Assembly: GCF_003076455.1 (NCBI RefSeq)
Contig: NZ_CP020918.1
Coordinates: 1,426,001 to 1,490,000, forward strand
Origin: Flavobacterium faecale
Lineage (GTDB): Bacteria; Bacteroidota; Bacteroidia; Flavobacteriales; Flavobacteriaceae
Reading direction: 5' to 3'
DNA length: 64,000 bases
Shown: positions 17,801 to 43,724 of the stretch, piece after piece
Position numbering within the stretch: the first letter of the stretch is position 1
How the letters are laid out: each line of letters starts with the position of its first letter
The notes under the pieces: generated by a model
Told to the model about the DNA's origin: nothing
Database searches by the model: none
What the model saw: only the letters and a program-made list of their open reading frames with translations
Made by a program: the position numbers and the translations under genes

Positions 17801-17916
17801 CCCGATAGCTATCGGGACTTCGTAATCCCGACGCTTCGGGACGGGTCAGGCTATCACTCCAATCTTTTTTGGGGCGGAAAAAGCCCCAAAAAAGGATTTC
17901 CTCCCGAAGCTTCGGG
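17801..17916. repeat. Cluster of CCCGA...TCGGG palindromes (REP-like)
   Basis: Three short GC-rich palindromes (CCCGATAGCTATCGGG 17801-17816; CCCGACGCTTCGGG 17827-17840; CCCGAAGCTTCGGG 17903-17916) flank a 15-bp hairpin with GGGGC/GCCCC core (17861-17898). Related palindromes occur at 22985, 38531, 42673 and 43069, so this is a dispersed family in the genome. An open frame through it (17762-18034, +) is not credible as a gene. Confidence 0.7.
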
Positions 17917-22981: not shown

Positions 22982-23047
22982 GCATCCCGAAGTGTCGGGA
23001 GCGGGATAACTCGTCATTTGAACCGAAATCGTCATGCTCCTTAAAAT

Positions 23048-38493: not shown

Positions 38494-38580
38494 AAAACGC
38501 TTTTTTTACTAGGTCACAGCAGGAGCTTCTCCCGAAACTTCGGGATGGTCGCTCTGCTGCTCCCGTAAAAAAGGCGTTTT
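38494..38580. repeat. Nested palindromic intergenic element
   Basis: Three concentric inverted pairs: outer AAAACGC-T7-AC with GTAAAAAAGGCGTTTT, middle AGCAGGAGC with GCTCTGCTGCT, inner CCCGAAACTTCGGG (38531-38544). The whole can fold into one imperfect hairpin of about 87 bases between the YdeP gene (+) and a convergent outer-membrane protein gene (-). It belongs to the CCCGA/TCGGG family seen elsewhere in the window. Confidence 0.6.
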
Positions 38581-42600: not shown

Positions 42601-42631
42601 ATGAGAGAAGCTAAAGAGTTTTTTTAAACAC

Positions 42632-42659
42632 AAAACCCACTAATTGCTTAGTGGGTTTT
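42632..42659 (-). terminator. tRNA-Phe-type terminator, copy 1 (behind tRNA remnant)
   Basis: One of four identical hairpins: arms AAAACCCACTAA and TTAGTGGGTTTT with a short loop and a T run on the minus strand. It follows the 3' fragment of a broken tRNA-Phe. Confidence 0.8.
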
Positions 42660-42660
42660 G

Positions 42661-42719
42661 TGGCACCTCCAGTCCCGATCCCGAGACTTCGGGAGTGGAG
42701 AACCGGGACACATTGATTT
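42661..42719 (-). pseudogene. tRNA-Phe 3'-half remnant, copy 1, with 27-bp insert
   Basis: Read on the minus strand it begins in the anticodon loop (AAATCAATGTGTCCC), runs into the T arm, and there carries a 27-bp palindromic insert (42673-42699, core CCCGAGACTTCGGG) before resuming CTGGAGGTGCC. The 5' half is missing; its upstream neighbour is the stop codon of a GIY-YIG frame. One acceptor base also differs (GGTGCC for GGTACC). Confidence 0.75.
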
Positions 42720-43019
42720 TTATATGTTGTTTTTACTAGAAATGTCTGCTAATAGATCAGGATTAAGAATGATTTTTTCGATGAATTTTTTACTTTTCAT
42801 TTTTTTAATGAATTTCTCTAAGAACAGCGCTTCTGATTTATTTATACAATTAAATTCAAGAACTAAATTCCAATCTGATGCTATTTTTGTATAAGAGTTA
42901 TCATAGCTGTGGTGATTATGTTTTTCTACACGTTGGGCAATATCATGGGTTTCGCCAATGTAGAATTTATCTGTGCTCTTGCTGTATAATATATTAGAGA
43001 TAGTGTATAAATAGTTTTT
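42720..43019 (-). pseudogene. GIY-YIG nuclease remnant, copy B (no start codon)
   Basis: About 99 codons read YLYTISNILYSKSTDKFYIGETHDI...SYTKIASDW...SEALFLEKFIKKMKSKKFIEKIILNPDLLADI on the minus strand, a UvrC/Uri-type GIY-YIG domain (the YIG triplet is followed by ET). A stop precedes it at 43020-43022 and no ATG, GTG or TTG lies ahead of the domain, and the N terminus is scrambled relative to copy A. It ends exactly where the tRNA-Phe remnant begins. Confidence 0.75.
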
Positions 43020-43027
43020 TTAAACAA

Positions 43028-43055
43028 AAAACCCACTAATTGCTTAGTGGGTTTT
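43028..43055 (-). terminator. tRNA-Phe-type terminator, copy 2
   Basis: Same AAAACCCACTAA/TTAGTGGGTTTT hairpin; 396 bases from copy 1. Confidence 0.8.
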
Positions 43056-43056
43056 G

Positions 43057-43114
43057 TGGTACCTCCAGTCCCGATCCCGAGACTTCGGGAGTGGAGAACC
43101 AGTGACTATGGATT
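43057..43114 (-). pseudogene. tRNA-Phe 3'-half remnant, copy 2, with the same 27-bp insert
   Basis: Minus strand AATCCATAGTCACTGGTTC, then the 27-bp insert (43069-43095), then CTGGAGGTACC. The insert occupies the same T-loop position as in copy 1 and replaces five bases of the normal T arm. Only the 3' half of the tRNA is present. Confidence 0.75.
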
Positions 43115-43402
43115 TTATGGTTTGTTTTTAGATAAAATATCTGCTAGTATTTCTGGATTTAAAATGATTTTTTGGATAAATATTTTACTTTTCATTTTTT
43201 TAATAAAGCGCTCCAAGAAAAGTGCTTCGGATCTGTTTAGACAACTGAACTTTAAAACAATGGTCCAGTCAGAAGCTATTTTTGTATATGAGTTATCGTA
43301 GTTGTGATTGTTATGCTTATCTAAACGTTCCTAAAGATCATGCGTTTCACCGATGTAAAATTTATTTGTAATCTTGCTATGTAGTATGTATAAATAATGC
43401 AC
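43115..43402 (-). pseudogene. GIY-YIG nuclease gene, copy A, with internal stop
   Basis: A 96-codon frame starting GTG at 43402 reads MHYLYILHSKITNKFYIGETHDL, then an in-frame TAG at codon 24 (43331-43333), then ERLDKHNNHNYDNSYTKIASDW and a full family C terminus. One base change away from an intact 95-aa standalone GIY-YIG nuclease. It lies between the terminator of an intact tRNA-Phe and a displaced tRNA-Phe 3' half; its stop codon overlaps the start of homology to the anticodon loop. Confidence 0.82.
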
Positions 43403-43421
43403 TGAAAGTTTTTTTAAACAA

Positions 43422-43449
43422 AAAACCCACTAATTGCTTAGTGGGTTTT
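43422..43449 (-). terminator. Terminator of tRNA-Phe gene 2
   Basis: Hairpin AAAACCCACTAA/TTAGTGGGTTTT directly after the tRNA 3' end, T run on the minus strand; 394 bases from copy 2. Confidence 0.85.
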
Positions 43450-43450
43450 G

Positions 43451-43523
43451 TGGTACCTCCAGGGTTCGAACCAGGGACACATGGATTTTCAGTCCATTGC
43501 TCTACCAACTGAGCTAAGGTACC
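43451..43523 (-). tRNA. tRNA-Phe (GAA), copy nearer the GIY-YIG units
   Basis: 73 nt. Acceptor GGTACCT/AGGTACC, D stem GCTC/GAGC, anticodon stem ATGGA/TCCAT with loop CTGAAAA (anticodon GAA), T loop TTCGAAC, discriminator A. CCA is not encoded. The T stem has one T-T mismatch. Identical to the copy at 43652. Followed by its terminator and then by the GIY-YIG copy A. Confidence 0.95.
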
Positions 43524-43622
43524 TTGCATATTGCGTGTGCAAATATAGTATCTTTTTTTGTTTTACCAAATATGTTTGCGAAAACTATTTAATAACATTA
43601 GAATATTAATTTTTTTAAACAA

Positions 43623-43650
43623 AAAACCCACTAATTGCTTAGTGGGTTTT
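43623..43650 (-). terminator. Terminator of tRNA-Phe gene 1
   Basis: Fourth copy of the AAAACCCACTAA/TTAGTGGGTTTT hairpin, 201 bases from the third. Confidence 0.85.
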
Positions 43651-43651
43651 G

Positions 43652-43724
43652 TGGTACCTCCAGGGTTCGAACCAGGGACACATGGATTTTCAGTCCATTG
43701 CTCTACCAACTGAGCTAAGGTACC
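43652..43724 (-). tRNA. tRNA-Phe (GAA), first copy
   Basis: 73 nt and identical in sequence to the second copy, with the same flanking AAGGTACCTTGC boundary and terminator. It is the 5'-most unit of the array. No gene lies between the two tRNAs. Transcribed divergently from coaX. Confidence 0.95.

Follow-up and report, generated by a model that had tools for sequence, protein, structure and literature searches.

The window analysed in this work is a stretch of 64,000 nucleotides from Flavobacterium faecale (contig NZ_CP020918.1, positions 1,426,001 to 1,490,000) that contains an array of tRNA-Phe genes and pieces with two short frames of the GIY-YIG nuclease family. The best explanation for this array and its relatives, and one that we consider probable, is a group of isotype-specific GIY-YIG elements that split and restore tRNA genes and spread by intronless homing. 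Such an element is free-standing, as its nuclease gene lies outside an intron or intein and within a tRNA locus, with the tRNA gene as its presumed target. The architecture of the elements, their isotype-specific lineages, their exact presence and absence boundaries in two genome pairs and their near-identical copies in one genome (G017) were observed directly, and the mobility of the elements is supported. Loci and genomes are given here by numbers of our own (L and G).

The elements are chromosomal, belong to Bacteroidota, are about 0.35-0.46 kb in size and carry one free-standing GIY-YIG gene of about 80-100 codons. If the target tRNA gene is written as A|B for its 5' and 3' parts, the 3' form of the element is A-[B-terminator-nuclease-A'-PAL]-B, where PAL denotes a palindrome, and the mirror or 5' form is A-[PAL-B'-nuclease-A]-B. 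One junction is scarless and yields a complete tRNA gene from one half of the target and one half of the element. The other junction yields a dead half-tRNA in which a loop or the whole anticodon arm is replaced by PAL. The 3' form is therefore read as a complete tRNA gene with its terminator, the nuclease gene and a truncated 3' part. The 5' form is read as a truncated 5' part with a palindrome in the D loop, the nuclease gene and a complete tRNA gene (L126, L129, L131 and L133 for tRNA-Asn and L143 for tRNA-Arg). The nearest tRNA gene assigns 109 of the 142 loci with a called tRNA gene in reach to the 3' form and 33 to the 5' form, a few of the latter calls being chimeric pseudo-tRNAs. The form is a trait of the lineage among Asn-type elements (49 rows, 3 changes against a shuffled mean of 13.0). 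An earlier note on this DNA, made from the window alone, had proposed that the element carries the 3' half of a tRNA gene, which holds for the 3' form, whereas the mirror form carries the 5' half. The palindrome and the mirror form were absent from that note and were found in the present analysis.

Short GIY-YIG genes are linked to tRNA genes well beyond the window. In the same genome, they also lie behind tRNA-Met (two copies), behind copies of tRNA-Asn and within an array of tRNA-Pro fragments, and the nuclease gene in these Met, Pro and Asn units is followed by a truncated tRNA of the matching isotype with the palindrome. The search of 25 genomes with PF01541 provided 77 short matches, of which 24 have a called tRNA gene on the same strand within 600 bp, where less than one is expected by chance according to our own rough estimate (assuming about 45 tRNA loci per 4 Mb). 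This count is an underestimate because several arrays retain only dead tRNA pieces, and most of the rows without a tRNA gene resemble, by eye, another GIY-YIG group. No tRNA gene was called in eleven control loci with long GIY-YIG genes (L006, L014-L016, L033 and L035-L040, where L006 is the gene of L014). The 30 control loci of DUF885 genes also have no tRNA gene on their own strand within 600 bp, and two of them (L094 and L109) have one on the opposite strand. The names DUF885, rseP, coaX, UvrC, integrase and transposase were assigned by eye from translations.

An alignment of the Asn, Phe, Met and Arg types, run against 84,980 species genomes, identified at least 447 relatives, and 80 loci picked by protein similarity alone were used. 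A called tRNA gene is present on the same strand within 600 bp in 68 of these 80 loci. Among the remaining 12 loci, 11 show truncated tRNA pieces by eye and one has tRNA-Asn at about 740 bp. The 80 loci comprise 78 from Bacteroidota, one without a phylum and one from an Algicola listed as Pseudomonadota, a genus name that is in use in two phyla. The combined table has 215 rows, in which a few loci are counted twice (L176 and G009, L177 and G004) or are tandem copies, and none of these has a tRNA gene on the opposite strand within 600 bp. No tRNA gene was called within reach in 73 of the rows; some are arrays of truncated tRNAs, and L150 and L151 have none by eye. The linkage that the earlier note had proposed to look for thus holds widely, for several isotypes and with matching truncated tRNA pieces. 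That note had taken a lack of tRNA linkage elsewhere, or junctions that vary at random, as signs of plain local duplication, and the opposite was found, since most scan loci are linked, the isotype follows the nuclease tree and the position of PAL is fixed by lineage.

Two other kinds of short GIY-YIG loci were also observed. Six loci (L009 at G000:C1:1802485-1802703, L017, L022, L025, L043 and L045) belong to a second short GIY-YIG group with no called tRNA gene and with direct or inverted repeats of another kind at their flanks. A near-identical second Asn-type nuclease gene (L013:5468-5761) is distant from called tRNA genes, on the far side of two frames that resemble transposases by eye.

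There are separate lineages for Asn, Phe, Met, Leu, Val, Ala, Arg, Pro and other isotypes. The isotype changes 29 times on the tree of 133 nuclease proteins (96 columns), which was built with a quick method and has 62 of its 130 inner branches open, against a shuffled mean of 78.8, and none of 200 shuffles is as low. Second copies in the same genomes add the isotypes Pro(GGG), Ser(GGA), Leu(TAA), Arg(ACG) and Arg(CCT). The Phe-type query matched 61 of 299 genomes of the family. Nine of its ten best loci (L116-L125, which include the window's own) adjoin tRNA-Phe and the tenth (L119) lies in an array without a called tRNA. Loci of the next tier adjoin mostly tRNA-Asn, then tRNA-Met, Arg and Val, with no tRNA called at L136 and L141. 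The Ala-type query matched 62 of 295 genomes of the class, where 17 of the 30 loci examined are at tRNA-Ala or tRNA-Val, 7 have no called tRNA and the rest are at other isotypes. The upstream contexts of nine Ala-type loci fall into seven clusters and those of nine Leu(CAA) loci into six, although the clusters were built on short flanks and cut-off contigs may split one context into several.

The tRNA-Asn locus next to rseP was compared in 30 genomes of one genus, where tRNA-Asn is present in 29 and the nuclease in 7 (L285 is the locus counted above as L177, and L294 was left out of the close reading). The occupied locus L306 matches the empty locus L301 at 94.5% identity as far as the end of tRNA-Asn, and the match resumes 394 bp further on, at position 51 of the displaced tRNA copy. 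L306 has the distal terminator and flank of empty L301, which are native, and a proximal terminator of another type. For occupied L305 and empty L293, identity is 85% as far as the tRNA gene, and the former again has 394 bp extra that are bounded by position 51 of tRNA-Asn. The distal terminator and flank of L305 are native, the terminator being of another type than that of the first pair, and its proximal terminator is different. Both ends of the 394-bp difference lie inside tRNA-Asn in both genome pairs, and the GIY-YIG frame is the only frame in the two inserts, which have no integrase. The comparison of empty and occupied sites suggested in the earlier note gave exact boundaries. The claim that a unit of about 395 bp inserts in a tRNA gene and pushes the old 3' half downstream is supported by both pairs, with the native half and terminator downstream, but the site is not always the anticodon loop as had been claimed.

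Copies also lie at separate loci of one genome. Two tRNA-Val loci on one contig of G017 (at 410 kb and 1,994 kb, 1.58 Mb apart) share 522 bp at 96.6% identity. The shared stretch extends from just upstream of the tRNA gene to the distal terminator, and the flanks are unrelated within the 700 bp compared on each side. G015 has two occupied tRNA-Val loci with 85% identity, and the other 14 genomes checked for two loci have different isotypes or arrays, mostly without alignable DNA between the loci. Nuclease and RseP similarity are not in step at the rseP locus of the one genus, since L279 and L285 share 81% in RseP and 45% in the nuclease and L285 and L307 share 77% and 65%. The near-identical tRNA-Val units of G017 and the presence and absence at tRNA-Asn fit spread to homologous empty sites. 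The collections of phages (50,697 records), plasmids (72,556) and IMG/VR contigs yielded no relative of the Asn type, the only type searched for there.

A palindrome of the TCCCGATAGCTATCGGGA type lies within a loop of the truncated tRNA copy, at a position that is specific to the lineage. CCGA..TCGG is present in the expected region of 105 of 139 elements, CCCGA..TCGGG in 89 and the strict CCGA(T/A)AGCT(T/A)TCGG in 64, and the elements with CCGA..TCGG span many isotypes and several classes of Bacteroidota. A broader count of palindromes (82 of 109 3' forms and 27 of 30 5' forms against 103 of 2,780 single-letter shuffles) includes a few terminator hairpins, and the motif count is the cleaner of the two. 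Most elements of the Asn, Phe, Met and Leu types have PAL in place of 3-5 nt of a loop, and in the Val, Ala and Pro types, as far as it can be placed, PAL mostly takes the place of the anticodon arm. Its sites include the D, anticodon, variable and T loops, depending on the lineage, and its position follows the nuclease lineage in Asn-type elements (39 rows, 8 states, 8 changes against a shuffled mean of 22.2). Among the unoccupied rseP loci, PAL is found only in L301, about 370 bp away, and in L304. We infer that PAL marks the site of the cut in the displaced half and seals it, and an RNA or regulatory role is also possible.

The possibility that PAL is exclusive to the element was considered, as the genome of the window has only 6 TCCCGAn6TCGGGA sites, and it was rejected because the count over 20 genomes and the 20 copies sampled showed PAL to be dispersed in some genomes. 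The 20 sampled stretches of about 600 bp have no tRNA or GIY-YIG match, although one of them (L327) lies about 240 bp from the tRNA-Asp of an occupied locus, so that 19 of the 20 are clear. Dispersed copies are at times found inside other inverted repeats.

The nuclease proteins are recognised by PF01541, which scored 46.2, 56.6 and 47.2 bits in three proteins (cut-off 22.6), together with weak T5orf172 matches. No NCBIfam model reached its cut-off, and a model for group I intron endonucleases came nearest (56.05 bits required, 20.6 and 22.4 reached). Four residues are near-invariant among the 133 proteins, namely Y5 (131/131), Y16 (133/133), R26 (131/132) and E64 (133/133), which we take to be the catalytic Tyr, Tyr, Arg and Glu of GIY-YIG nucleases, and H30 is also near-invariant. 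The nuclease protein is under purifying selection, with a ratio of nonsynonymous to synonymous substitution rates (dN/dS) of 0.05-0.22 in 14 of 15 pairs and of 0.69 in one pair with dS of 0.02. The predicted fold is confident (mean predicted local distance difference test score, pLDDT, of 91.8). It is nearest to UPF0213, Slx1 and the I-TevI catalytic domain, with no match below an E-value of 1e-3 (best Foldseek E-value 9.5e-3, TM-score about 0.5). The protein presumably cuts the DNA of tRNA genes, judging by its family and by phage SegB.

The features of the window locus are listed in Table 1. The order of the array and the spacing of its hairpins (201, 394 and 396 bases) were as the earlier note had described them, and the four hairpins are copies of one terminator. 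That note had also read the two frames as GIY-YIG genes. Both match PF01541 (genome positions 1469184-1469399 for A and 1468789-1469013 for B), but they do not read as intact genes: an internal TAG interrupts frame A, where a GTG is the sole possible start ahead of the conserved part, and frame B lacks any ATG, GTG or TTG in front of its own conserved part. The claim that homology to tRNA-Phe begins at the stop codons was correct for both junctions, as TAA at 43117-43115 is followed by AATCCAT in frame A and TAA at 42722-42720 by AATCAATGTGTC in frame B. The two frames, which lie behind hairpins 2 and 3, are diverged copies (76% identity over 275 nt), and dN/dS of 0.11 between them indicates that they were under selection before they decayed. 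Frame A is 63% identical to the Phe-type nuclease that adjoins tRNA-Phe in G015. CCCGA..TCGGG substitutes for the T loop in both truncated tRNAs, and this pattern has 9 matches in the window against 0.08 expected, of which 4 are nested in the two truncated tRNAs.

Table 1. Features of the tRNA-Phe array in the window (42629-43724, minus strand).
Feature	Position	Strand	Basis
tRNA-Phe(GAA), intact copy 1	43651..43724	-	ARAGORN
Terminator hairpin 1 (AAAACCCACTAAGCAATTAGTGGGTTTTTT)	43620..43653	-	Inverted repeat; L089, a syntenic empty allele, has a near-identical hairpin behind tRNA-Phe
tRNA-Phe(GAA), intact copy 2	43450..43523	-	ARAGORN
Terminator hairpin 2	43419..43452	-	Inverted repeat
GIY-YIG frame A, Phe type, broken (internal TAG; GTG start possible)	43115..43402	-	PF01541, 41.2 bits; translation
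Truncated tRNA-Phe 3' part A, palindrome in place of T loop	43056..43117	-	Begins with the stop codon of frame A
Palindrome in truncated tRNA A (CCCGAAGTCTCGGG core)	43070..43089	-	Pattern match
Terminator hairpin 3	43025..43058	-	Inverted repeat
GIY-YIG frame B, Phe type, broken (no start codon ahead of conserved part)	42720..43019	-	PF01541, 33.1 bits; translation
Truncated tRNA-Phe 3' part B, palindrome in place of T loop	42660..42722	-	Begins with the stop codon of frame B
Palindrome in truncated tRNA B	42674..42693	-	Pattern match
Terminator hairpin 4, distal	42629..42662	-	Inverted repeat

Further palindromes of this pattern are found elsewhere in the window (17801-17916, 22986-22999 and 38531-38544), and those at 17801-17916 sit in a repeat (gggc...cacgc) that resembles repeats of L256 and L258. 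The search for an empty Phe site through the DUF885 neighbour provided one syntenic empty allele (L089) among 30 loci. The window alone does not discriminate insertion from duplication because its four terminators are alike and resemble the tRNA-Phe terminator of L089.

Tandem arrays are common among the elements, with units of about 381 bp in G314 and 457 bp in G560. The latter genome has a very regular array (G560:C9:906491-910392) with nine nuclease copies at an exact spacing of 457 bp. The array in L012 (G000:C1:1951400-1955600) consists of dead tRNA-Pro units of about 137 bp, most of them without a nuclease, and its unit resembles an internally deleted nuclease element. A nuclease-free array of palindrome-bearing tRNA-Asn copies, which ARAGORN calls as tRNA genes, is present in L304 of the rseP set. 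Chimeric pseudo-tRNAs in L081:2233-2310 and L048:1905-1984 are called tRNA-SeC(tca) by ARAGORN.

The spread of isotype-specific elements by homing would proceed as follows. The nuclease would break a tRNA gene of its isotype that is without the element, with the cut probably falling at the loop that is later replaced by PAL. Recombination repair through the shared tRNA halves would then copy the element in, and PAL may protect the displaced half. The cell would keep a working tRNA gene because the element carries half of the tRNA. Several observations weigh against this explanation. The protein consists of a catalytic domain alone, without an evident domain for specificity, and the rebuilt tRNA gene is intact, so that an occupied allele should itself be cleavable. 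Vertical inheritance and loss may explain part of the isotype pattern because 42 of 56 Asn loci share one upstream context (rseP where read), and near-copies in the tree add to the isotype clustering. The nuclease-free L290 and L299 have the proximal terminator type directly behind tRNA-Asn; since they carry the supposed foreign terminator, gain and loss are not separable and some empty alleles may be losses. L307, one of the seven occupied rseP loci, has neither a truncated copy nor a palindrome behind its nuclease gene. The exact PAL core is dispersed in some genomes, with 0 to 40 copies in the 20 genomes searched and none in 11 of them.

The terminators bear most directly on local tandem duplication, in which a GIY-YIG gene was already resident and slippage or unequal exchange around it would have duplicated the tRNA 3' half and its terminator, with later decay of the copies and without any mobility. 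The four like terminators of the window and their resemblance to the empty allele of a relative are what this process would leave, and tandem arrays such as those in G314 and G560 are common. Among 20 distinct Asn loci with both terminators readable, the proximal and distal ones agree in 15 (in a few of them but for one to three letters), which target duplication would give and which also counts against homing, and the agreement may come from target duplication or from later homogenisation. They differ in the other 5, among which L183 was read behind a further tRNA-Asn copy, and in L284, L305 and L306 of the rseP set, where L305 and L306 combine a differing proximal terminator with the native distal one. 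The unit common to two loci with unrelated flanks in G017, the many isotypes and contexts, and a palindrome whose position is fixed by lineage, which is not decay, argue against local duplication, as do these differing terminators. Local duplication as the sole process, the rival that the earlier note had named, was therefore rejected on the comparison of empty and occupied sites and the G017 pair, and we regard it as very improbable, although it may still explain the growth of arrays after arrival.

It is also unlikely that the nuclease is an amplification device, that is a SegB-like enzyme that drives tandem amplification of tRNA genes and is kept because additional tRNA copies are useful against tRNA-cutting toxins or phage defence. 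In its favour, SegB is a free-standing GIY-YIG enzyme that is reported to cleave within tRNA genes and to cause a tRNA-Tyr segment to be amplified (PMC13096335), the window has two intact tRNA-Phe genes and arrays are frequent. However, the array units that were read carry truncated, palindrome-broken tRNA copies, which should not raise tRNA dosage, and there is no profile similarity to T4 SegB. We give equally little credence to the GIY-YIG gene being cargo of a separate system, either one that moves palindromes, of the repetitive extragenic palindrome (REP) type, or an integrase, that makes the insertions. The dispersal of the palindrome in several genomes, at times inside other inverted repeats, and a 425-aa frame next to one copy (L011), which looks like an integrase by eye, would suit such a passenger. 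Against it, the nuclease is the sole frame in the two compared 394-bp inserts, has kept its catalytic residues and is under purifying selection, and G007, G010 and G017, which carry tRNA-linked GIY-YIG genes, are among the 11 genomes without the exact palindrome core.

Homing of isotype-specific elements hence remains our preferred explanation. A broader version of it, which we put forward tentatively and with less than even confidence, is a minimal class of mobile elements across the phylum. A bare GIY-YIG domain would recognise a tRNA gene by its isotype, insert at a loop and rebuild the tRNA with the carried half, and PAL would seal the displaced half against recutting and against recovery as a tRNA. 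Recognition is perhaps via hairpin-forming loops, as the nearest folds include the structure-specific nuclease Slx1. The lineages differ in the tRNA and the loop they use, so that most tRNA genes of Bacteroidota would be potential homing sites.

Few targets in a genome are as conserved and essential as tRNA genes, and the element seemingly targets essential genes without harm to them. If true, the tRNA-splitting and repairing element would represent a homing system of very small size (about 0.4 kb) and would show, as a natural experiment, how specificity is acquired by a GIY-YIG domain on its own. It would also link the tRNA gene arrays, tRNA pseudogenes and free-standing nucleases of Bacteroidota, and SegB, as related phage biology, points to a way in which bacterial tRNA genes could be amplified. 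The dead copies are an annotation hazard, as they are called as tRNA genes and even as tRNA-SeC.

No description of GIY-YIG genes inside bacterial tRNA genes was found in the titles and abstract openings of the open-access papers that literature searches listed, among which subscription journals are mostly absent, and the main text of the GIY-YIG superfamily survey PMC1564403 has no word beginning with Bacteroid or Flavobacter. UPF0213 and Slx1 (1zg2, 1ywl and Slx1) are the closest solved structures by sequence and fold, but neither is described as linked to tRNA genes in the sources consulted, unlike the elements in this work.

Phages, integrative and conjugative elements and islands that integrate at tRNA genes carry a tRNA part that rebuilds the target and leave the displaced tRNA part at their other end. 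The elements in this work resemble them in both respects and differ in that the 394-bp inserts have one GIY-YIG frame and no integrase and that a mirror form with the 5' half exists. Group I introns in tRNA genes are positioned in the anticodon loop. The Rfam scan of 12 loci found no intron family, and no splicing is needed, unlike for group I introns, because a contiguous tRNA gene stands beside the element. The likeness to these introns is the insertion inside tRNA genes together with homing-type nucleases (PMC3984707).

SegB and the other free-standing GIY-YIG homing endonucleases of T-even phages share with the elements a free-standing GIY-YIG gene among tRNA genes. SegB is reported to cut in tRNA genes, which leads to tandem tRNA arrays (PMC13096335; PMC2988022), and its homologues are reported to occur in phages of several host phyla, including Bacteroidota (PMC13096335). 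The comparison with T4 SegB by hhalign gave a probability of 0.3, and any similarity is confined to a short stretch at the YIG motif. The SegB motif RAWTSGAAC resembles a reversed T arm in our own reading. T4 SegB has 221 aa and its gene sits between tRNA genes (tRNA-Arg and tRNA-Ile), whereas the nucleases in this work have about 80-100 aa and belong to chromosomal, isotype-specific elements that lie inside a tRNA gene and rebuild it.

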